Source of the DNA: a virus | Length of the DNA: 25,764 bases | Direction: 5' to 3' (one strand) | Virus record (IMG/VR): IMGVR_UViG_3300035228_000350 | Span: 1-25,764 of that record | Shown: positions 3,410 to 19,695 of the stretch, piece by piece | How positions within the stretch are numbered: the first letter of the stretch is position 1 | Layout of the letters: the number at the start of each line of letters is the position of its first letter | Program-made: the position numbers and the translations under genes | The notes under the pieces: model-generated | What the model was told of the DNA's origin: nothing | Databases searched by the model: none | Seen by the model: the letters and a program-made list of their open reading frames with translations, nothing else

Positions 3410-4339
3410 ATGGCCTCAAAGGAATCGAAAGCTTATTTTAATACTAAAGTTGGAAACTTGGGGGCAAATCCCCAAAGTCCTAGACCTTTTGCTGATATAC
3501 GAGACACCGCATTAGATGTTGGTGAAACCTTCGAGACTAGTTTCTTAGACTCACTAGGACATCCATCTTTATCAAGTTTTTACAAAGTAAGACTAGATTT
3601 AGCACCTACTAATTCAGCTGGCACTTTAGAGAAGTGGTTACAAGATTGTGGTGTGTATAAGAAAGATAGTTTAGGTCAAGAAAGATTTTCCTTAATGGCA
3701 ACTGAAGCAATATTGCCTGGAGCAACTTTTGCAACTACTTCGGAGACTGGGAGTAGACAAGGTATAGTAGAGAAATTTGCAGCACAAAGAACATTTAATG
3801 ATATTGCGGTCACTTATTATTTGACAGGAGACTACAGAAGTCTTACAATGTTTCAGGAATGGGTCAATTATATAAACCCAATGTATTCCGAGTCTGGACT
3901 AGAGACTGCTTCAGCTACAGGATATCCAGAAGAAAAACATTTTGCAAATAATAATTTCTTAAGATATAGATATCCACAGTCATACAAGAGAAGTATGACT
4001 ATAACTAAATTTGAGAGGAATATTGATACAACTCTCGTGAGACCAACGAGTCTGGCTTTTGGTTTAGGGAGCAATAACATTCCAGAAGCATTGAGTTATA
4101 GGTTTGTTAATGTTTTTCCTACATCCATACAGGATATTGCACTATCATATTCAGATTCTCAAGTATTGCAAGTGACAGTCAATTTTGCTTATGATAGGTA
4201 TGTTATGGTGAGGAGTTCTGATGTTATTGGATATACTGGTGGAACCATCCCATCTAATGATACTGATGACAACAGTAAGTCTCTCGTAGAATCTCCTACT
4301 AATGTCACTAATGAAACAGAACCTACTACAGCAAGATAG
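3410..4339 (+). CDS. 54: Baseplate tail tube initiator protein gp54
   Basis: This 309-aa protein is close in size to T4 gp54 (320 aa). The match to the tube-initiator pattern lies at AVTYYLTGDYRSLTMFQEWV (about residues 133-152), equivalent to 'vsF..D...yr.m.dWv', and near NVFPTSIQDIALSYSDS (234-250) followed by VTVNFAYDRYVM (255-266), equivalent to the 'G..P.s...ls.....i.tf.VtFaY' end of gp54 and gp19. The last 35 residues are Ser/Thr/Asn/Asp-rich and look disordered. In T4, gp54 binds the gp48 cap and nucleates the gp19 tail tube. It is transcribed away from gp4 and gp48, and no clear ribosome site is visible upstream (the ATG follows TTATTTAG). A role as another tube-fold protein cannot be excluded, but gp48 and gp54 together account for both such genes here. 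Confidence 0.78.
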   Translation: MASKESKAYFNTKVGNLGANPQSPRPFADIRDTALDVGETFETSFLDSLGHPSLSSFYKVRLDLAPTNSAGTLEKWLQDCGVYKKDSLGQERFSLMATEAILPGATFATTSETGSRQGIVEKFAAQRTFNDIAVTYYLTGDYRSLTMFQEWVNYINPMYSESGLETASATGYPEEKHFANNNFLRYRYPQSYKRSMTITKFERNIDTTLVRPTSLAFGLGSNNIPEALSYRFVNVFPTSIQDIALSYSDSQVLQVTVNFAYDRYVMVRSSDVIGYTGGTIPSNDTDDNSKSLVESPTNVTNETEPTTAR

Positions 4340-4380: not shown

Positions 4381-5097
4381 ATGCCTTTACCAAAAATTAC
4401 TACCACTGAGTATGAGTTGGAATTGCCATCAAATGGAAAGACTATAAAGTATAGACCGTTTCTGGTAAAAGAAGAGAAGATACTTATCCTCGCTCTAGAG
4501 GGTGGAAACCAAAAAGATATTACTAATGCAGTTAAGCAAGTAATTAAAGAGTGCGTCATTACAACAGGACTCAAGATAGATAATCTACCAGCTTTTGATA
4601 TTGAATATTTGTTTTTAAATATTCGTGGTAAGTCTGTAGGTGAATCTATTGATCTTCTCGTCACATGTGGTGATGATGGAAAAACCGAAGTGAGTGTGAC
4701 AGTTCCTATTTCCGACATTCAAGTTGTAAGATCTGAAGATCACATATCAGAAATTGAAATTGGTGATGGATGGACTGTGAAGATGAAATATCCTTCTCTC
4801 AACCAGTTCATTGATAGCAACTTTACTGACAGTGAAGATACTATTGAGAAATCATTTAATGTTCTCTCTAGTTGTATTGAGATGGTTTATAACGATGAAG
4901 AGATGTTTGCCGCATCGGATTGCACTAAAAAAGAGTTAAAAGAATGGGTCGAAGCATTGACTTCACAACAGTTTCAAAAACTTGAAAAATTCTTTGAAAC
5001 TATGCCTAAATTGTCACATAAACTTACTGTGACTAATCCGAACACTAAGAAAGAAAACACTATAGTATTAGAGGGCTTAGCCGATTTTTTCGCCTAA
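4381..5097 (+). CDS. 26: Baseplate hub assembly protein gp26-like (zero-frame product)
   Basis: This 238-aa protein resembles T4 gp26 (208 aa), which takes part in hub assembly. The N-terminal block shows the family pattern: ELELPSNGKTIKYRPFLVKE (residues 12-31) then EKILILALEGG, AVKQVIKECV, and LPAFDIEYLFLNIRGKSVGE (64-83). Residues 88-120 form a beta-rich section with CGDDGKTEV, and the rest is helical and acidic. The reading frame ends in ..LADFFA then TAA. The last codons contain a T_TTT_TTC slippery heptamer at 5085-5091, and a hairpin follows, so a fraction of ribosomes is expected to shift into the 63-aa downstream frame and make a fusion of about 303 residues. It lies 41 nt after gp54 behind a late-promoter-like element. 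Family assignment is fairly sure; the exact role in the phage is taken from T4. Confidence 0.8.
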   Translation: MPLPKITTTEYELELPSNGKTIKYRPFLVKEEKILILALEGGNQKDITNAVKQVIKECVITTGLKIDNLPAFDIEYLFLNIRGKSVGESIDLLVTCGDDGKTEVSVTVPISDIQVVRSEDHISEIEIGDGWTVKMKYPSLNQFIDSNFTDSEDTIEKSFNVLSSCIEMVYNDEEMFAASDCTKKELKEWVEALTSQQFQKLEKFFETMPKLSHKLTVTNPNTKKENTIVLEGLADFFA

Positions 5098-5128
5098 GTA
5101 TGTCTCACATCAATCTTGAGACATACTT
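5085..5128 (+). promoter_or_regulatory. Predicted programmed -1 ribosomal frameshift site (slippery heptamer plus stem-loop)
   Basis: T_TTT_TTC at 5085-5091 lies in the zero frame of the gp26-like gene as gaT|TTT|TTC, the canonical X_XXY_YYZ arrangement. Four nt later a perfect 12-bp stem begins: AAGTATGTCTCA (5096-5107) pairs with TGAGACATACTT (5117-5128) around a 9-nt loop. The zero-frame stop TAA (5095-5097) sits at the base of the stem. After a -1 slip the reading continues CGC CTA AGT ATG into the 63-aa frame, with no stop between 5049 and 5288. The spacer is slightly short unless the two outer A-T pairs melt. Confidence 0.72.
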
Positions 5129-5291
5129 CCGAATCAATTTTGCTCTCATGCAGTACCATAAATATAACTTGTGGGATGTTGAGAATTGGATGCCTTGGGA
5201 AAGAGACATCTATGTTGGATTACTTAGACTTCATATTGAAGAAGAAAACCTAAAAGCAAGAGCCAGGGAAGCCCAAATGAAAAATGGCTAA
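5100..5291 (+). CDS. Small hub/tail assembly protein, probably the -1 frameshift extension of gp26
   Basis: This 63-aa frame has FALMQYHKYNLWDVENWMPWE near residues 14-34 (aromatic-rich, with MPWERDIYVGLL) and a charged helical end, HIEEENLKARAREAQ. The MPxERDIYV..L..HIEEE pattern is one I associate with small T4-like phage proteins next to gp26, in the place of T4 gp51 (a hub assembly catalyst, 249 aa), but the size is very different, so no gene name is given. Its ATG at 5100 lies inside the 12-bp stem and has no visible ribosome site. Expression is therefore more likely by -1 frameshifting from 5085-5091, or by re-initiation after the TAA two bases upstream, than by free initiation. It overlaps the next gene by 8 nt. 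By analogy to G/GT-type proteins, the fusion would be an assembly chaperone for the tape measure; that is inference. Confidence 0.68.
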   Translation: MSHINLETYFRINFALMQYHKYNLWDVENWMPWERDIYVGLLRLHIEEENLKARAREAQMKNG

Positions 5292-6981
5292 ACTAAGATC
5301 ACTATTAGACAAAGGTGCTAAAGCAGTTAAGAAAACTGTTAAAGCTGACAAGATTTTTGGGAAAGCCAAGAGTCTAGTAGGTGGTGCAAAGAATAAAGTA
5401 CTATCATCCACAAAAGGAACGTTAAGTAAAGTCAGAGGCAAAATGTCTCTGGTTCCTCAGGCTCTACAACCTCCCGAACAGATAACACCTAGAGCAAATA
5501 TAAAAAGGGTTGGAAGACTAGTAGAAAATAAAGTCCAAAATCTAGTTCCTAATTTAGTAAAGTCGGTACAATCTAAGGTCAGTACGTTTGATCCACAGGC
5601 CTTCTTAGGTAAGATATTTGGTGGTGGTTTAAATTCTTTACAGAACTTTGCCTCTGGGTTGTCGGGTCTACAATCCTCTCTGAAAAAATCTCTAGGATCT
5701 TTAACGGAATCGAAGGGGATCATTGCTGATCTCATCGAGAAGATGGCGAAGGCCAAACCTCAAAAGTCAAAGGGAGGTTTGTTAAAAGGATTATTAAAAG
5801 GTGCCGCAGTTGTTGGGTTGGCCGCACTGGCAGTTAAGGCAGCACCAGCAGCGTTAGGTGTTGCTGGAGCAATAGGTGGTGGATTATTTAAGGGATCTGC
5901 TCTGGGAGGTGGCCTCGCTCTTGCTAAGAACGTGTTTGGACGTAAGAAAAAAGAACTAAATGTTGATGGAACTAAATCAGAAGTAACTAAACAATTCAAA
6001 GAATCCTTGGAGAAATTTGATGAGGCTTTGAGTCTCGTTGAGATGCAGTTCAAAGGTAAAATCAGCAGGAAAAATATTAATACAGACCCTAATAATGAAG
6101 AGGATCCTGAAGAGGAAGAAGAGAGTGCTGTTGAGGGCAAAGGTGATGACGATACTGGTCTAAAGAACGCAACAGATGATGAACAACCAGCTGGTAAACC
6201 ACCAAAAGATAAGGATAAATCAGTTCCTACTACCGTAGAGGGATTGGATTCTAATTTTCCTCTGCCTGATCCTGATAAAAAAGCAGATGAAAACTTTGAT
6301 AGTCTCGGAAGACCAGTTCCCATAGGAACTGTTGTTGGTGGCGATGATATGCAACCATCAACAGTAGAACCACTTACTGATCCGACAAGTACTTTTACTG
6401 GACAAGGTGGACCTGATTTAGTATTAAAACCCCAGACTATAGAATTTCTCAAAGGGAACCAAGGTGTTAAGGGAAATAGAGGCGCTCTTGGATCTAAGGG
6501 AGACCCAGGCATTAAACCTACGACCGCTTCTTCTGGGACACCTATGGAACCTATAGCAGAGATGCCTAAACCACAGGGACTTATGAGAGGTCTCGCTGGT
6601 ATGGGAGACATGTTGAGCTTTGGTATGACTGACTTTGATAAGAGGGGAGATATATTTAAAGATAAGAGTAAGGCAGATGTTCCTACAGAGACAATGGGTG
6701 ATCTTTCCTTGCCTAAATTAGAGATTGCTGCTAATCTGAGGAATCTTGAAGCTTTAGGACAGGTAACAGATGGTATAAGTCAACCAGTTGGCCAAGGCAA
6801 CAAAACGGAAACTCCTCCAGTCGTGTCAATACCAGTGCCAGTAGGTGGTGGTGGTAATCAAACAGGGAAGTATAAGATGAGTAGGATGGAGAATGAAGCT
6901 CCTATACTTCTTGCAGTAGATCCTTCAAATATACATCTTACAACAACTAAATCACTGCTTAATATCATGGATGCGCTGTAA
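5284..6981 (+). CDS. Large internal tail/hub protein, candidate tape measure, with a collagen-like segment
   Basis: This 565-aa protein starts with a very basic Lys-rich region (residues 1-95), then helical sequence, a glycine/alanine-rich hydrophobic stretch (about 165-215, GAAVVGLAALAVKAAPAALG and onward) able to span a membrane, an acidic low-complexity section (265-300, DPEEEEE), and a Pro/Gly-rich linker region. Residues 391-411 are seven Gly-X-Y triplets (GNQ GVK GNR GAL GSK GDP GIK), a short collagen-like repeat. The C-terminus ends in a hydrophobic helix. Length is similar to T4 gp29 (590 aa), the tail-length determinator, and it follows the predicted frameshifted gp26 gene as tape measures follow frameshifted chaperones in other phages. 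I cannot align it to gp29, so the role is inferred from position and composition. Start ATG 5284 overlaps the preceding frame by 8 nt. Confidence 0.7.
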   Translation: MAKLRSLLDKGAKAVKKTVKADKIFGKAKSLVGGAKNKVLSSTKGTLSKVRGKMSLVPQALQPPEQITPRANIKRVGRLVENKVQNLVPNLVKSVQSKVSTFDPQAFLGKIFGGGLNSLQNFASGLSGLQSSLKKSLGSLTESKGIIADLIEKMAKAKPQKSKGGLLKGLLKGAAVVGLAALAVKAAPAALGVAGAIGGGLFKGSALGGGLALAKNVFGRKKKELNVDGTKSEVTKQFKESLEKFDEALSLVEMQFKGKISRKNINTDPNNEEDPEEEEESAVEGKGDDDTGLKNATDDEQPAGKPPKDKDKSVPTTVEGLDSNFPLPDPDKKADENFDSLGRPVPIGTVVGGDDMQPSTVEPLTDPTSTFTGQGGPDLVLKPQTIEFLKGNQGVKGNRGALGSKGDPGIKPTTASSGTPMEPIAEMPKPQGLMRGLAGMGDMLSFGMTDFDKRGDIFKDKSKADVPTETMGDLSLPKLEIAANLRNLEALGQVTDGISQPVGQGNKTETPPVVSIPVPVGGGGNQTGKYKMSRMENEAPILLAVDPSNIHLTTTKSLLNIMDAL

Positions 6982-8852
6982 TGAAAAAATCTAAAATAAC
7001 TGGTATAACACAGAAAGCTAAGAATTCAGTAGATAAATCTGAATCAACTATAAATCGATTTGCTCGATTTATGGGAGTGATGACTAAAAGTGTTACGAAG
7101 GATAGTCCTAATCAACAAACATTAAAAAAAGCTGGACTATTTGCAAAAAATTTCGGTGGTGGTAGGAGTTCAAAAGTGAATAAAATGTTACTTGGCGGTG
7201 CTTTGATGTTGCCTCTAGTTTTGGGGCAAATGATATCAAAAGAGAGATCTACAGAGGAACTTCTCCAAAACCAGTATGGTGGAAACGAGAAAGCAATGCA
7301 GTCAGATCTTAAGGAAGAACAAAAGATTAGAGATGAAGGATTAGAAAAAGTAAAAACTACTGCTGATGAGAACAAAGATATATCATTAGACAGGAAGAAA
7401 GATCTTAAAGCAGTATCCCAGAAAGACCCAGAAGAAATTCCTAAGTCAGAAGTAGATTCAGATGCTACTACCCTAGAAAGGATGAACGATAGATTATCAT
7501 CTGTGGATGGAGGTATCGATAAAAAAAATTCAGATCAGTTTGTGGAATTGATGGATAGATTTGTGTTCCTTGCTAAAGTTGGTGCTTTTGGTGTGGTGGA
7601 TAAAGGTCCAACCTTATCCGAACGTATAGATCAAACAAAGGCAAACATTAGAAAATTTACTGGTGGTAAAATTGATGATGGTGTATTTTCTCTTGGTTTT
7701 GGAATAAATATTCCGAATGTACTTTCGGAAAAAGGAAGACAAAAACTAGGTCTAGGACCTAAAGACAATTCAAAAGATCAAAAAAGTCAGATCCGAGAAA
7801 TTACTGAATCAGTTGATGCTCAGATTGCAAAAAATGAAAAGGCATATACAGATGCTGGTGCTCTAGCGGCTGATGAAGAAGCTACGAAAAAATACCTTAG
7901 AACTAAGACTGAACTAGAAAAGTTGAAGAAAAGACTTCAAGATGAACCTCTTACTGTACTTAACGAGATGATGTCAGATGCCAATCCTAGTAGTGTTTCA
8001 TCACAATCTACTATGTTAAGTCTTGGCGGTGGTGGTGGTACAGGAGAGCAAAATCTTGCTGCATTTCTATCAACTATGGAAGCATCTGGCAATCAAAACC
8101 AAGCAGATGCGTTCCAAGTAATGCTTAATAGAGCTGCTGATGCACAAGCAGGTGGTTCTTTCAGAGCATATGGCACCAGCTTAGGAGATCAAATTACGGG
8201 CAGGGAACAATTCTCGCCACTATCCTCTGCAATTTATGGTGTTAGTGCGGATAGTGCTGCAGCAGCAAAGTATGGTCCTATTTCATCGGCATTAGGTAAT
8301 AATCCACAGGAGAGAAAGAAAAGACTACTTGAGATTGCTTCTCAACCAGACGGTCTAAATGCACTACAAAAACTATTTGGTGGCGGTTCTTCATCTGACG
8401 CTTTAAAAGTATTAAAAGACTTTCAAACTGGTGGATCATTATCTCAAACATCTGTTAGTGATATTGGATCTATGGTATCCTTTAGGGGATATAGGTCTGG
8501 TTCTGGAGATTTTAATAGAGGAAAGGGAGGAAACTTCTTCTTTGGTTCAGGATCAAAAACAGGATCACTAAAACAAGTTTCTCCTGGCACTGATCCTATG
8601 GGAGATCAGTCATCTCTCACTCCGAATAAGCCTAATCAAATTGCTCAATTCGTTCCAACGGGATATATGCCTTATGATGATCCATCTAAATCATCTTCAC
8701 AAATTATTGCACTTACTCCTACCCCTGTAAATACAAGTCAACAACCCATTGTGACAGGATCGGGTGATAGTGGATCCCCACAAATAATTCCAGTAGCTGA
8801 TCATGGATCATTATTTACTCAAATTCAACTCAATAGTTTAGCTTTAACCTGA
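6981..8852 (+). CDS. Large internal tail/hub protein with a possible SleB-like cell-wall hydrolase domain
   Basis: This 623-aa protein has a basic N-terminus and one clear hydrophobic segment (about residues 69-84, MLLGGALMLPLVLGQM), then long charged helical regions (85-160 and 260-330). At about 357-460 a section resembles the Hydrolase_2/SleB pattern of wall hydrolases: LAAFLSTMEASGN with Glu367 in the place of the catalytic Glu of '..Y.EARGE', then QADAFQVMLNRAAD, and later REQFSP (408-413) like the '..QFSP' motif. The remainder is Gly/Ser/Pro-rich. The gp5-like protein here has no recognisable lysozyme, so this protein may supply the peptidoglycan-degrading activity during infection. It overlaps the preceding gene and gp27 by one base each (TAATG and TGATG). 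The hydrolase assignment is moderate; an alternative is a purely structural tape-measure partner. Confidence 0.65.
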   Translation: MKKSKITGITQKAKNSVDKSESTINRFARFMGVMTKSVTKDSPNQQTLKKAGLFAKNFGGGRSSKVNKMLLGGALMLPLVLGQMISKERSTEELLQNQYGGNEKAMQSDLKEEQKIRDEGLEKVKTTADENKDISLDRKKDLKAVSQKDPEEIPKSEVDSDATTLERMNDRLSSVDGGIDKKNSDQFVELMDRFVFLAKVGAFGVVDKGPTLSERIDQTKANIRKFTGGKIDDGVFSLGFGINIPNVLSEKGRQKLGLGPKDNSKDQKSQIREITESVDAQIAKNEKAYTDAGALAADEEATKKYLRTKTELEKLKKRLQDEPLTVLNEMMSDANPSSVSSQSTMLSLGGGGGTGEQNLAAFLSTMEASGNQNQADAFQVMLNRAADAQAGGSFRAYGTSLGDQITGREQFSPLSSAIYGVSADSAAAAKYGPISSALGNNPQERKKRLLEIASQPDGLNALQKLFGGGSSSDALKVLKDFQTGGSLSQTSVSDIGSMVSFRGYRSGSGDFNRGKGGNFFFGSGSKTGSLKQVSPGTDPMGDQSSLTPNKPNQIAQFVPTGYMPYDDPSKSSSQIIALTPTPVNTSQQPIVTGSGDSGSPQIIPVADHGSLFTQIQLNSLALT

Positions 8853-10503: not shown

Positions 10504-10509
10504 TGATTG

Positions 10510-13500
10510 ATGTTAGAAAGCGCCCTTGCACAGACCAACTTTGTTGGAAGAGATGGATTCATATGGTGGATTGGTAGAGTAGCCGATCCAGAACATTGGC
10601 GCGATCAATCTACTGATGTTAAATCTGGTTGGGCGTTTAGATGTAAAGTAAGAATAATAGGTTATCACCCATTTGACGAATCCATAATGGGTGAAAAAGA
10701 TTTACCTTGGGCACATGTCATGGTAGATCCTACCTCTGGTGCTGGACAGGCCTGTTTGGGAGAAAAGTCAAAGATGGTTGGTGGAGAAACTGTTTTTGGT
10801 TTCTTCTTGGATGGCGAGGAAGCACAACAACCAGTAATTTTTGGTGCTTTAGCTAGATCAATCAACGACAAATCAGGTCCTTCAAACTTTCTTAGAGATG
10901 GTGCTGAATCTGAAGCTAATGCTTTCGCTGTGGCAACTGGTAGGAAGGCTGGTATCGATGGGATGACCACTCTTCCCAATTCCGAAAACAAAGAATTAAA
11001 TCCAGCTGCTGTAGCAGAAGGAAAGAATCAATTACAAGAAAATGCAAAAAATAAAGCTGGTGAGGAAAAGAAAAACTCACCTGGCGAATTGGAAAGTGGA
11101 AAGGAGGGGATATCTAATGATAGAAAGTCAGAGGTAGAATTTTCTAATACCCAACTAGGTCCTCATAGTATGGACAATGGGTGTGAACAGGGTCCTTTAG
11201 GTGATATTGCACATACGATTGGTAGTTTTCTAACTACAGTAAACTCTCTTACTGCCTATGCTGGTGCTTACATTGACACTGCTCAAAATCTGCTTGCAGA
11301 TGTTAATAAGTTAGTTAGAAAGGCTTCTAAGTTAATATCTGCTGCGGTTAAAAAGATACTCAATGTTATTAGAGATAAAGTTATTGGGTTGATAACGAAG
11401 GTATTCCGAAATGTACAAGCACTAATTATACCAGAACCACAAAAATCTCCTATCCTCAAAGCCCTACAGAAAATTCTTGATATTTTATTCTGTATCTTTG
11501 GAGATCAACTTCCAGGCCTATTTGATCTAGTGACTGGTCTTTTGAAAGACATGATTGGTAAGGTATTAAATCCATCTGTCTGTGCTGTAGAGCAGATGGT
11601 CGGAAATATTTTGGGAGAGATCTACGATAAACTAACAAAAGCATTAAAACCAATACTAGACGGATTAGATTGGTTGACTGGCGCTTTAGGTAGTGTTGGT
11701 AGTTTGTTATCAAAGGTCAGTAGTTATGTTAATATGCTCTTAGGATTCTTTGCTTGTGCTAAATTATCCTGTAAAGAATATGATGATTGGTCTCAGGGTT
11801 TAGGAATCACATCTAAACCAGACTTATCATTTGGAAAAGTTCTTGACAACATGAAAATATTGGAACAATATGATAATTTTGTTGGAGCGGCAGATACTAC
11901 TGGTGATGGAGTTTATGATGCAAGAGCTAAATTCTCACTTCTCAGTATGCTAGGTGGAGGTTTACCAGACTTCTTTGATTGTAATGCTAGGGTACAGAAC
12001 CCACAAACACAAGATGATCTTGGTAATTCAGTACCGCCAGGATTTACATGGAGTGAATGTATCCCACCGAAGATAGAAGTTAGGGGAGATGGAACAAAAA
12101 CTGCTGTTCTTATGCCTATAGTCTCATCTGTAAATGGAAGTATTCTTACTTTAGAGATCTTGGAACCAGGCTTAAATTATACTGGAACTCCAAGAATTGC
12201 AATTATAGACAAGACTAGACATGGCGGCGGTGCTCACGCTGAAGCAATCATAGATGAAAATGGATCTATTGTTGACATCTTTATGTTGGCGCCTGGAGAG
12301 GGATATTGTCCTTCAACTAATGTAGTTCCTCCAAAGTATCCTGTTACTGAAGACGATGATGATGAAAATCCCTTCATTACATTTACTACACCCGCTGATG
12401 ATGCAGTAGGTGTTCAAACTTCTACTTCTCTTTCAATTACATTTAATGAACCAATAGTAAAAGGTAATGGAGATGTTACCATTACAGAATCGGGCACTAA
12501 TGTTGTGCATGAAAGAATCAATGTGAAGAATAATAAAATATCATTCCTATCCGATAGGATTATTAAGATAGATCCAAAGAATGACCTAAAATTTAACACA
12601 GAATACTATATTTCTATGTCTGAGGGTTCATTCTTAGATCTATATGAAAATCAGTTTGCTGGTATGGGAAGAACTGATACCTATAATTTTACAACCAGAG
12701 GTGTTTCTGGTATTGGTAGTGAGGCAGTTGGTATTGTAACGGATCTTGTTCCTTACAGGCCTGGAATTGGATATACTTCTGGAGATAAAGGTAGAGTGGG
12801 AGATTGTTCTTTCGATTTAATTGTTACTCCAGCAGGTTCTATCGCTGGAATCAATAACATCAATTGTCAAGATAAACATAAATCTATTCCTTCAGTATCG
12901 ATAGATACTAGAACAGGAATTGGTGCCAGATTGTATCCAATCATGTCATATAGTCCTGACTATGTTTCTGATATTGGAGAGAAACCAAGTAGAGATGGTG
13001 GTATTATTGGTAGAGGTGGAATTGTATCAACTGATGAGGCAAGAAGAGGTGGAACTCTGTTTGTTAAGGTAGTTGATTGTGTCTACAGTCAACGTACAAC
13101 ACAGGTTGGCTGGGTCAATGGTAACCCATATTATGGCGACTTCCATGTTCATCCATCAACAGGTAAGAAGATGGTAGGACCTACTCATGTATCCTCACCA
13201 CATGCCACAATATATAATACTAAGAATGAAAGTCTTGGCCAACAACCAGTTATAATCTACACCCCTCAATCGAGCACCACTACTACAACCACTACCACTC
13301 CAACTGTAAGTACAACTAACACAACTACTACAACGGAACAGACAAATGCCTCTGCCGACACTACTGATAGTTCTACACCATCTATTAATACAAATACCCC
13401 ACAAGAAACTACGCAGCCTCAAGAACAAACTGGGGGAACTACACCTCCAAGCACTCCTCCACCTAGTAGTCCTCCTTCTGGTGGTGGCGGGTCTGGCGGA

Positions 13501-13536
13501 TCAGGTGGATCAGGCGGTTACGGAGGCGGATACTGA
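10510..13536 (+). CDS. 5: gp5-like baseplate hub/spike protein with OB-fold and Ig-like domain, no visible lysozyme
   Basis: The ATG at 10510 is preferred over the in-frame TTG three bases earlier, giving 1008 aa. Residues 10-116 are the OB-fold start of gp5/VgrG proteins: GFIWWIGRVADPEHW, RCKVRIIGYHP, LPWAHVMVDPTSG, VFGFFLDGEEAQQPVIFGAL. T4 gp5 (575 aa) follows this with a lysozyme; here instead are long amphipathic helices (about 230-430) with no E...D...T lysozyme pattern that I can see. An Ig-like domain of Big_5 type lies at about 620-730 (TTPADDAVGVQTSTSLSITF ... TYNFTT). Residues 878-900 (FHVHPSTGKKMVG, then H893 and H898) form a histidine cluster. The end is a Thr/Ser/Pro-rich linker (about 916-977) and a Gly-rich tail. 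It makes the puncturing hub with gp27 and probably the needle protein encoded next. Confidence 0.8.
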   Translation: MLESALAQTNFVGRDGFIWWIGRVADPEHWRDQSTDVKSGWAFRCKVRIIGYHPFDESIMGEKDLPWAHVMVDPTSGAGQACLGEKSKMVGGETVFGFFLDGEEAQQPVIFGALARSINDKSGPSNFLRDGAESEANAFAVATGRKAGIDGMTTLPNSENKELNPAAVAEGKNQLQENAKNKAGEEKKNSPGELESGKEGISNDRKSEVEFSNTQLGPHSMDNGCEQGPLGDIAHTIGSFLTTVNSLTAYAGAYIDTAQNLLADVNKLVRKASKLISAAVKKILNVIRDKVIGLITKVFRNVQALIIPEPQKSPILKALQKILDILFCIFGDQLPGLFDLVTGLLKDMIGKVLNPSVCAVEQMVGNILGEIYDKLTKALKPILDGLDWLTGALGSVGSLLSKVSSYVNMLLGFFACAKLSCKEYDDWSQGLGITSKPDLSFGKVLDNMKILEQYDNFVGAADTTGDGVYDARAKFSLLSMLGGGLPDFFDCNARVQNPQTQDDLGNSVPPGFTWSECIPPKIEVRGDGTKTAVLMPIVSSVNGSILTLEILEPGLNYTGTPRIAIIDKTRHGGGAHAEAIIDENGSIVDIFMLAPGEGYCPSTNVVPPKYPVTEDDDDENPFITFTTPADDAVGVQTSTSLSITFNEPIVKGNGDVTITESGTNVVHERINVKNNKISFLSDRIIKIDPKNDLKFNTEYYISMSEGSFLDLYENQFAGMGRTDTYNFTTRGVSGIGSEAVGIVTDLVPYRPGIGYTSGDKGRVGDCSFDLIVTPAGSIAGINNINCQDKHKSIPSVSIDTRTGIGARLYPIMSYSPDYVSDIGEKPSRDGGIIGRGGIVSTDEARRGGTLFVKVVDCVYSQRTTQVGWVNGNPYYGDFHVHPSTGKKMVGPTHVSSPHATIYNTKNESLGQQPVIIYTPQSSTTTTTTTTPTVSTTNTTTTTEQTNASADTTDSSTPSINTNTPQETTQPQEQTGGTTPPSTPPPSSPPSGGGGSGGSGGSGGYGGGY

Positions 13537-16596: not shown

Positions 16597-16973
16597 TTCC
16601 TGATCATTTTTACCCATTCTGGACTGTTTATGATAGTATAGGACAGAAGTATTGTGATTGTAGTCACGAACAATATGCCATTACCACTCTGGAATTACAT
16701 GAGGGTGATGGATTTACATATAAACGGATAGAAGCACCCAAACCATTGCCACCTGAGATAATAGATGTCAAATCCACAGGTAGTTACGAGGGTAAATTGC
16801 CAGGGCAACAGGGATTACCTTCCGAAACTTCAATTTACTTTGATAGTATCAAGAAACGATTAGAAGAGAGGGAAAATGATGATATGAGAAATGCAATTAT
16901 AGATGCCGCCGTAAACGGTTATGAAAAAGTATTAGAACAAAGCGATTTACAGAAATTAGATGATTTGCATTAA
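16593..16973 (+). CDS. Small protein of unknown function
   Basis: This 126-aa protein starts by ATGA overlap with the preceding stop. The N-terminal half has aromatic and cysteine residues (HFYPFWTVYD, YCDCSHEQY), a Pro-rich middle (APKPLPPEIID), and a charged, probably helical C-terminus (about 80-126, IKKRLEERENDDMRNAIIDA). No motif is recognised. The tight overlap with structural and oxygenase genes suggests it is expressed in the same late operon. Confidence 0.6.
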   Translation: MIPDHFYPFWTVYDSIGQKYCDCSHEQYAITTLELHEGDGFTYKRIEAPKPLPPEIIDVKSTGSYEGKLPGQQGLPSETSIYFDSIKKRLEERENDDMRNAIIDAAVNGYEKVLEQSDLQKLDDLH

Positions 16974-17497
16974 TGAAACAACTTTTTGGAATACCTGTCT
17001 TTGAAGATCAGGTTGATGTAACTAAATTTGATTGTATTCCCCTCTCTCCCTTAGAACCTACTTGGGATTCTGGAGTTTCATCTACTTTCTCGTCACAGAA
17101 ACAAGAAGAAATTCCACAGGAAATTTGGGTTTATTTGTCTGGTATAATAGAGAGAAATCTCTATCCAGCAGAACTGATGGGAAAGAACGCAAGGTTTGGA
17201 CATATATGGAGAAATGTTTATAAGAAACATGATTATCAAGATGCTCACATACATCCTAAAAGTCAATGGAGTTATGTGATATATGTTGACGTGACATCAA
17301 GAACTGCATTTTTTAATCCTTCGATTCATAACATTCAGAACCATTTTGGTTGCACTTTGCCCCAGTTTCCGTTAGACTATAAACCTATTCTGGAGCCTGG
17401 GAGTATCATCATATTCCCATCATTCCTCATGCACATGGTTAATTCCGGCAATGAGGGAACTACAATATCTGGAAACATTTACATGGAATACTCATGA
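16973..17497 (+). CDS. 2-oxoglutarate/Fe(II) oxygenase-like protein (HxH variant)
   Basis: This 174-aa protein has the layout of the 2OG-FeII_Oxy_5 type found in cyanophages: an aspartate-rich start, then AHIHPKSQWSYVIYVD (about residues 91-106) with H92 and H94, and a later PGSIIIFPSFLMHMVNSG (about 142-159) with H154. H92 or H94 plus H154 would be metal ligands in a double-stranded beta-helix. The usual Arg that binds 2-oxoglutarate is not visible in EGTTISGNIYMEY, where Thr stands at the expected place, so activity is uncertain. Phage members of this class may modify proteins or nucleotides; the substrate is unknown. Start overlaps the preceding stop (TAATG) and it shares 4 nt (ATGA) with the next gene. 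Confidence 0.68.
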   Translation: MKQLFGIPVFEDQVDVTKFDCIPLSPLEPTWDSGVSSTFSSQKQEEIPQEIWVYLSGIIERNLYPAELMGKNARFGHIWRNVYKKHDYQDAHIHPKSQWSYVIYVDVTSRTAFFNPSIHNIQNHFGCTLPQFPLDYKPILEPGSIIIFPSFLMHMVNSGNEGTTISGNIYMEYS

Positions 17498-17796: not shown

Positions 17797-17914
17797 TCAA
17801 GTCTGGGAGTGGGAGGAAACTCCAGAACTCTCTGCATTTATCTCCAAACAAACTGGCAATGAGGTTTTGAAACAGAAACCTACTATGAAAGATGTTGAAG
17901 TATCCGAATCTTAA
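17750..17914 (+). CDS. Short protein with a TTG start, overlapping the coiled-coil gene
   Basis: A TTG at 17750 is preceded by AGAGG at about 7 nt, a good ribosome-site spacing, and gives a 54-aa protein beginning MAKRTLTIQKK and containing QNNQVWEWEETPELSAF (residues about 15-31). The alternative ATG at 17684 would place 22 extra residues inside the upstream coding sequence in another frame and has no good ribosome site. The Trp-Glu-Trp-Glu-Glu motif and the good start context argue that it is real. It overlaps the coiled-coil gene by 47 nt and the next oxygenase gene by 23 nt. Function is unknown. Confidence 0.58.
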   Translation: MAKRTLTIQKKNPQNNQVWEWEETPELSAFISKQTGNEVLKQKPTMKDVEVSES

Positions 17915-18479
17915 AGACCACATATTTGAGTATGATTTGCTATCTGATCAGGAATGTGATCAGATAGTATCTCTTTTAGATTCTCGTGAATGGGGTGAAT
18001 TTTCTTGGTATCAGGACTTTGAACAGGTTGATATTGATAAAGAATCAAATATGAAATCAACCGTAACTGCCCCAGAGGCGGTAAATATAATACAACCACA
18101 TATAAATGATGAGTTGTTTAATGCCTTCCACGAAAAATATAATTATTATGACGTTGAGGATAATCAAACTGGCGGTTCATTTTGGGAAGCTTGCTCAGGC
18201 ATAAAATTCAATAAGTATGATGTTGGCGATTATCTTAGTCCACACTACGATCATATCCGAGATTTCTTTGAAGGACAATTTAGAGGCATACCTGTTACTA
18301 GTGTGGTAGGTGTGTTGAATGACGATTTTGAAGGAGGTGAGTTTAGGTTTTGGAAGGAACACACTGTCAATATAAAGAAGGGAAGTGTGTTAGTATTTCC
18401 AGCACTGTATTTGTTTCCACATGAAGTAATGCCAGTAACAAAAGGAACCAGATATTCTTGGATACAATGGATTGTATAG
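17892..18479 (+). CDS. 2-oxoglutarate/Fe(II)-dependent oxygenase, prolyl-hydroxylase type
   Basis: This 195-aa protein has a complete set of 2OG-Fe(II) oxygenase residues: H118-x-D120 (LSPHYDH), distal H177 (LYLFPHEVMPV) and R187 (KGTRYSW) for 2-oxoglutarate binding. The strands between (VTSVVGVLNDDFEGGEFRFW, then IKKGSVLVFPA) match the 2OG-FeII_Oxy_3 or PKHD-type domain with a typical N-terminal helix (LLSDQECDQIVSLLD). Such enzymes hydroxylate proline or other residues; those carried by cyanophages have unknown targets. It ends 20 nt before the tmRNA acceptor piece. The ATG at 17892 lies in the end of the 54-aa gene with a weak ribosome site, so coupled translation is likely. An 11-bp inverted repeat lies near its start. 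Confidence 0.84.
   Translation: MLKYPNLKDHIFEYDLLSDQECDQIVSLLDSREWGEFSWYQDFEQVDIDKESNMKSTVTAPEAVNIIQPHINDELFNAFHEKYNYYDVEDNQTGGSFWEACSGIKFNKYDVGDYLSPHYDHIRDFFEGQFRGIPVTSVVGVLNDDFEGGEFRFWKEHTVNIKKGSVLVFPALYLFPHEVMPVTKGTRYSWIQWIV
17940..17967 (+). repeat. Perfect 11-bp inverted repeat near the start of the oxygenase gene
   Basis: CTATCTGATCA (17940-17950) pairs with TGATCAGATAG (17957-17967) around a 6-nt loop. The stem is 46 nt after the ATG and is followed by TATCTCTTTTAG, so it could act as a weak terminator or attenuator, or fold in the mRNA to slow translation. It is also compatible with coding constraint on an acidic DQECDQ segment. Confidence 0.55.
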
Positions 18480-18809: not shown

Positions 18810-18998
18810 ATGAGATTACAATTCTGGTATTCAAAAAATATTGAACAGTGGCATTGGACACTCCACACCAGACATTATGCTCCGAAAGGAACAGATTACT
18901 ATTATACCTCTGGATCAGGAACTGATGTAAGAGAGGTAATGGGTAAGGTTGCCTCAGAAGTTGAACATTTAGTGGAAGAAAAGAACAAAGATGTTTGA
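18810..18998 (+). CDS. Small protein of unknown function after tmRNA
   Basis: This 62-aa protein is rich in aromatic residues at the N-terminus (FWYSKNIEQWHWTLHTRHY, residues about 5-23) and helical and acidic at the end (VMGKVASEVEHLVEEKNKDV). This W.H.TL...HY type of start looks conserved rather than random, but I cannot name it. It follows the tmRNA locus by about 20 nt and overlaps the next gene by 8 nt. Confidence 0.62.
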   Translation: MRLQFWYSKNIEQWHWTLHTRHYAPKGTDYYYTSGSGTDVREVMGKVASEVEHLVEEKNKDV

Positions 18999-19695
18999 AT
19001 TAAGTGAAAATTTAGAAGCTACTGCCATCACAGACATAGGCATAGATGGTAGGAGTGCTATGGTCATAGATAATTTTTATGAAAATCCAGAGGAAGTTAG
19101 AAGATTAGCTTTAAAGTTGGATAGAAAAAAAGATATTCCATTTAGTAATCACCCTAATGGAATAGAAAGAGCTGCATATCAAACAGATGAACTAAGGAAA
19201 AATATAGAACATGTGATCAAACAGATATGTCATGACGATGAACATTGGGGCAGAACATGCGATAGACCAACGATTGACGAAAATATGTCATACATGTGGT
19301 TTCTTGTAGAGTATCTAAATGAAAAGACAATGACAGATCAACCAGATCGACTCATACCTTTTCAACTATGGTATGAACATAACCCATCGCCTTTCCAATT
19401 TAAGATAGAGATATATTTAAACCATGAGGAAGAATGTTTTGGTGGAACAAACCTATGGAATTTTGCTGGAAGGACTTCAGTAGTTGAAGATATGAAGGCA
19501 ATGTATGCCACTAAAAAACATTTTGATATTATTAAAGATGTTTATGACTCTAAATTTACTTGGGGTAGGGAGTTTACTTTTGGTATGAAATTTAATAGGG
19601 CAATAATCATTCCTGCTGACATATTACAATCTCCAATCATGAATACGGGTAAATTTACTGACGTAGATAGGATAACACAGGCCATATTTTTATAG
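18991..19695 (+). CDS. DUF6445-like protein, degenerate 2OG-oxygenase fold
   Basis: This 234-aa protein starts its fold with MVIDNFYENPEEVRRLALKL (residues 24-43), the typical opening of DUF6445-like proteins, a branch of 2-oxoglutarate oxygenase-like folds. Later IEIYLNHEEECFGGTNLWNF (139-158) and MKFNRAIIIPADILQSP (199-215) correspond to the last strands of that fold, and RITQAIFL ends it. The metal ligands are not visible: FKIEIYLN has no His-x-Asp, and DILQSP has no His where 'LFHS' is usual. It may be a non-catalytic relative. It overlaps the preceding gene by 8 nt and is followed by a promoter-like element. Confidence 0.66.
   Translation: MFELSENLEATAITDIGIDGRSAMVIDNFYENPEEVRRLALKLDRKKDIPFSNHPNGIERAAYQTDELRKNIEHVIKQICHDDEHWGRTCDRPTIDENMSYMWFLVEYLNEKTMTDQPDRLIPFQLWYEHNPSPFQFKIEIYLNHEEECFGGTNLWNFAGRTSVVEDMKAMYATKKHFDIIKDVYDSKFTWGREFTFGMKFNRAIIIPADILQSPIMNTGKFTDVDRITQAIFL

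Follow-up and report, generated by a model that had tools for sequence, protein, structure and literature searches.

The DNA analysed here (the window) is a 25,764-base viral record, AT-rich and derived from a marine T4-like phage. Of the annotated phage records that were searched, Synechococcus phage S-SSM7 (Kyanoviridae) is the closest, its gp26 being 91% identical, and both proteins considered below are 100% identical to those of a 230,739-base IMG/VR contig (L013, L081) that may be the same virus. The locus consists of a gp26-like gene, a T-rich heptamer at its 3' end, a hairpin and a small open reading frame (ORF2) in the -1 frame (Table 1). It is flanked upstream by a tail tube gene and downstream by a gene encoding 565 residues, which returned no family match in PF and phrog profile searches. 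The latter occupies the tape-measure position, and in Cr30 and phiM12 the gene annotated as tape measure sits nearby, one gene further downstream. This gene position is compatible with that of a tail assembly chaperone of the lambda G/GT type. Elsewhere, the window encodes a 1009-residue gp5-like OB protein that has a Big_5 Ig-like domain and a long tail rich in Thr and Gly (10507-13536), and its tail gene region contains two different 2OG-Fe(II) oxygenase-type proteins (16973-17497 and 17892-18479; PF13759, PF13640) together with a DUF6445-like protein just below the family cut-off (18991-19695).

Table 1 Features of the gp26 locus, in window coordinates
Feature	Position	Strand	Evidence
Tail tube protein gene, upstream context	3410..4339	+	PF23849 E=8.6e-12; phrog_45 tail tube E=2.8e-31
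gp26-like gene, predicted short form of tail assembly chaperone (TAC-N), 238 aa	4381..5097	+	PF12322 T4_baseplate E=4.7e-73; phrog_150 E=2.8e-78
Putative slippery heptamer T_TTT_TTC, zero-frame register (GAT TTT TTC)	5085..5091	+	sequence; conservation in relatives
-1 frame extension (ORF2, 'gp51'), C-terminal domain of predicted long form (TAC-NC)	5091..5291	+	phrog_634 E=4.6e-24; C-terminal part of phrog_150; T4 gp51 206-245, hhalign E=2.3e-5
Spacer, heptamer to hairpin, 4 nt	5092..5095	+	sequence
Zero-frame stop TAA, 3 nt past heptamer	5095..5097	+	sequence; same distance in 172/191 relatives
Hairpin, probable stimulator	5096..5128 (arms 5096-5107 and 5117-5128, loop 5108-5116)	+	z=-5.9; kept in the window's cyanophage clades, modest covariation
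565-aa gene in tape-measure position, downstream context	5284..6981	+	position only

The gp26-like gene closes with GAT TTT TTC GCC TAA, and the heptamer lies in the zero-frame register exactly where an earlier note on this DNA had placed it. TTTTTTY is frequent in DNA of this composition, with 13 copies observed in the window against about 20 expected; two of these are on the + strand, and only the copy at 5085 runs in the sense of a gene. Because the bare heptamer is common by composition, the evidence for its function rests on its register and its conservation.

Conservation was evaluated across a set of 193 distinct gp26 junctions, drawn from viral contigs and from named phages, all of which keep both ORFs. 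The set covers Kyanoviridae (cyanophages) and Melnitz-type, Cr30, phiM12, KVP40-like and Aeh1-like phages, the last two names being assigned by similarity. T_TTT_TTY occupies the same register in 191 of the 193 (181 TTTTTTC and 10 TTTTTTT), and the heptamer is also present in EniLVp02, which was examined separately from this set. Such counts are not independent trials, as the relatives share ancestry; the identity of their gp26 to that of the window nevertheless falls as low as 22%, making chance retention of the heptamer very unlikely. In three relatives (L182, L208 and L230) the zero-frame stop has shifted to a position 24 nt past the heptamer, with heptamer, slip geometry and fusion frame intact. 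The heptamer is missing from two Ackermannviridae-like Vibrio phages, L171 (2998-3890; CTT TTT CGC TAA TG) and L174 (2983-3899; CTT TTC AAG TAA TG), in which overlapping gp26 and ORF2 are kept; these phages may use reinitiation or a slip of one tRNA.

ORF2 corresponds to the short 'gp51' of cyanophages, and its family, phrog_634, is labelled 'baseplate hub assembly catalyst'. As the earlier note had described, the -1 frame continues through this small ORF (stop at 5289-5291), whose ATG (5100) is buried in the 5' arm of the hairpin, and no Shine-Dalgarno-like purine stretch occurs in the 20 nt upstream of that codon. The predicted fusion junction reads ..ADFF-RLSMSHIN.. and every one of the 191 heptamer-bearing relatives has an open -1 frame, of 56 to 73 codons when complete. 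ORF2 can do without its start codon: ATG occupies its position in 121 of the 191 and is missing from 70, of which 66 have CTN, while the first nine -1 codons are free of ATG, GTG and TTG in 35 of the 191. Residue conservation at the start of the extension was rejected as independent evidence, since R and L/I/V are largely dictated there by the zero-frame C-G and the letters of the stop codon.

ORF2 also contains CATAAATA (5157-5164, codons H-K-Y), which matches the T4-type late promoter motif (NATAAATA); the sole other + strand copy of that motif in the window is at 7703. H-K-Y is encoded by CAT AAA TAY in 138 of 156 relatives against about 45% expected from gp26 codon use, an excess which indicates that the DNA motif itself may be kept. 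Its role is perhaps that of a late promoter serving the gene at 5284.

In T4 the two domains are naturally fused. T4 gp51 is composed of a PF12322 domain (residues 1-201, E=3.9e-52) and an ORF2-like C-terminus (hhalign 206-245, E=2.3e-5), and in alignment T4 gp26 terminates at the equivalent position. With a gp26-like domain and the ORF2 domain united in a single gp51 chain, T4 thus has one gene for the short form (26) and another for the long form (51), and the two are divergent neighbours. This result agrees with the description of cyanophage gp51 as lacking about 200 N-terminal residues and having an end that resembles T4 gp51 (Sullivan 2010, PMC3037559). A frameshift site in T4 gene 26 was considered and rejected, there being no heptamer and no small downstream -1 ORF, with gene 25 following. 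The same FF is coded TTC TTT in gene 26 of T4, JY1 and 215Ecol030PP and has been lost in Acj61. Judged from these gene sequences, the heptamer is absent where a separate long gene is present in the T4-type phages examined.

Downstream of the heptamer, the perfect 12-bp stem proposed in the earlier note forms with all 12 pairs around a 9-nt loop. Folding of 5085-5150 gave a minimum free energy of -17.7 kcal/mol against -5.3 +/- 2.1 for shuffled sequences (z = -5.9), and none of 200 shuffles was as low; the stem is not due to chance. The 25.8 kb contain just two perfect inverted repeats of at least 11 bp with short loops, and this is the sole perfect 12-mer. The other (11 bp, 6-nt loop, 17940-17967) lies inside the gene at 17892-18479. 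When the stem was counted as kept at 9 or more of its 12 pairs and mapped on the gp26 tree, it was found in 71 of the 191 relatives, nearly all of these belonging to two cyanophage clades with 59 and 17 members (83% and 100%). A sister clade of 56 and the outer, non-cyanophage groups have lost or replaced the stem, which was rejected as a universal element.

Covariation in the stem was evaluated using 72 distinct sequences, picked mainly by clade. Pairing occurred in 83.6% of cells against 79.4 +/- 0.5 in shuffled sequences and 22-47% in slid controls, and double changes numbered 27 against 9.9 +/- 2.0 in the shuffled sequences. One pair (GU/UA/UG/AU) accounts for most double changes, and its bases also alter Ala/Ser/Thr codons; another pair changes from UA to GC and AU, and RNAalifold gave no consensus structure. 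Against the refuting condition of the earlier note (loss of the heptamer or stem in close relatives), the heptamer stands, and the stem stands inside the window's own clades only, with modest covariation. Searches of RNA families returned sub-threshold mir-1302 matches on both strands, rejected as a palindrome artefact, and neither a terminator nor a sigma-70 promoter was found at the hairpin. The hairpin is a real, lineage-specific feature and probably a stimulator of frameshifting. Being confined to the window's cyanophage clades, it would be at most a lineage-specific one, and its 4-nt spacer falls slightly below the usual 5-9 nt between heptamer and structure. We tentatively raise the possibility, of which we are less than persuaded, that in a clade of cyanophages which includes this one the hairpin both sets the ratio of short to long chaperone and masks the ATG of ORF2, leaving fusion as the only way in which the C-terminal domain would be made.

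Structures of gp26 and the extension were modelled separately with AlphaFold, giving a confident model of the former (pLDDT 88.7) and a fair, all-helical model of the latter (83.6). Foldseek recovered gp26 relatives among viral models, and two single chains in a viral structure library (A0A8S0HX62 and A0A6J7X6V4) match both gp26 and the extension. Against the PDB, Foldseek found nothing significant. The HK97 tail assembly chaperone 2ob9 had the highest Foldseek probability among the matches listed (0.51-0.57) but with E above 1, and its TM-scores (0.21-0.25 by query, 0.43-0.50 by target) describe a weak match; the similarity of the models to this chaperone is suggestive only. A sequence search of solved structures yielded no match for gp26, and the weak matches of ORF2 were set aside as resembling chance helical matches.

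The locus is very probably a lambda G/GT-type tail assembly chaperone in which a predicted -1 programmed frameshift joins gp26 to ORF2. This central proposal of the earlier note is supported by the near-invariant heptamer, the universally open -1 frame and the many relatives without an ATG, and the likeness it saw to tail-assembly chaperones holds. The majority of ribosomes would stop at 5097 and release the short form. In a minority, two tRNA-Phe on TTT_TTC (5086-5091) would slip simultaneously by -1 and re-pair on TTT_TTT, and reading would continue as CGC CTA AGT ATG... to produce a fusion of gp26 and ORF2 with about 303 residues. Slipping would probably be made more frequent in this virus by the hairpin 4 nt past the heptamer. 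The division of labour would follow that of lambda, with the gp26 part coating the tape measure protein and the C-terminal part recruiting tail tube subunits.

Existing annotation suggests a different account, in which ORF2 stands alone as gp51 ('baseplate hub assembly catalyst') and its translation starts by termination-reinitiation at ATG 5100, 2 nt past the stop of gp26. The close relative S-SSM7 and P-SSM2 are annotated as two genes, and the TAA-GT-ATG geometry is common; in the window and 120 others the ATG lies about 2 nt after the gp26 stop, where coupled reinitiation could add free ORF2. The 70 relatives lacking an ATG, many with CTC or CTT instead, and the 35 lacking any usual start in nine codons demonstrate, however, that conservation does not extend to the start codon. 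Reinitiation was therefore ruled out as a general mechanism, and it leaves unexplained both the near-invariant heptamer and the T4 fusion; we consider this account improbable. Transcriptional slippage on the T-run could instead insert a base and join the frames in the RNA, as the site is a homopolymer that reaches 8 T in a few relatives. Yet 181 of the 191 have a run of exactly 6 T with C next, where TTT would have been synonymous and would have lengthened the run, and the fixed last base (C or T) is explained by a frameshift heptamer. Bacterial polymerase slippage also usually needs longer runs, and we regard this explanation as highly improbable.

The heptamer and hairpin might otherwise result from amino-acid conservation (FF and MSH...ETY) alone, without any recoding. 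F236 and F237 are indeed invariant in the gp26 alignment, and the hairpin arms encode partly conserved residues. The choice among synonymous codons argues against this idea. Elsewhere in the same gp26 genes, Phe-Phe is most commonly coded TTC TTT, and only 7 of 196 such pairs are T_TTT_TTY (2 T_TTT_TTC and 5 T_TTT_TTT); TTC TTT or TTC TTC, used elsewhere in these genes, is not used at the site. In all of 154 cyanophage-like sequences, T is the last letter of the codon ahead of the site and TTT is codon 1; codon 2 is TTC in 151 of them, and synonymous choice in the preceding 30 codons is far looser at most positions. T4-type phages in which FF coexists with a separate long gene encode it as TTC TTT. 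We find a by-product origin extremely unlikely, and a programmed frameshift remains our preferred reading.

Frameshifting in T4-like chaperones is of a known kind, and the window provides a further member, conserved in about 190 relatives. Vladimirov, Gautam and Davidson are said to have found in 2022 that frameshifting is conserved in several T4-like groups, with T4 using genes 26 and 51. As represented in papers that cite it, their study identified the T4-like tail assembly chaperones TAC-N and TAC-NC (gp26 and gp51) (Vladimirov, Gautam & Davidson 2022, Virology 566:9-15), and to it are attributed the poly-T -1 frameshift signals in TAC-N genes of T4-like phages (PMC12846349) and the observation that some T4-like phages carry a short and a long fused gene (PMC10885494). 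In 2016 T4 was still given in a review as the exception to G-T frameshifting (PMC5009743). The published gene pair is of the same kind as that of the window, and the arrangement of a short and a long gene was reproduced here for T4. Because these chaperones and poly-T signals were published in 2022, the earlier note's suggestion that a frameshift at the gp26 position of T4-like phages was undescribed falls, while its claim about the mechanism stands. Relative to those chaperones, as the citing papers describe them, the window adds an uncultivated phage and a clade-specific hairpin 4 nt past the heptamer; no description of this hairpin was found in the literature searched, in which the 2022 study is represented by its citing papers.

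Comparable sites occur in other tailed phages. The lambda heptamer, GGGAAAG, is unlike T_TTT_TTC, and the E / E' pair of phage P2, which has a contractile tail and a T-rich -1 site (T_TTT_TTG), belongs to a different protein family from gp26 and is likened to it by description. Lambda gpG and gpGT likewise depend on a -1 slip near the end of the gene for a short chaperone, with the tape measure gene downstream, and by description the long form gpGT has an extra C-terminal domain like that of the predicted fusion (PMC5009743). The chaperones of Vandenendeviridae / Andersonviridae (phage Adele) have a conserved -1 shift at the poly-T motif GTTTTT, in phage families and with a motif that differ from those of the window (PMC12846349).

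The comparison of T4, with its two genes, and its frameshifting relatives points to an evolutionary exchange between recoding and gene duplication. Cyanophage records, including those of close relatives, list gp26 as a gene separate from 'gp51 baseplate hub assembly catalyst' or omit ORF2, and hundreds of such entries should probably be one frameshifted chaperone gene.
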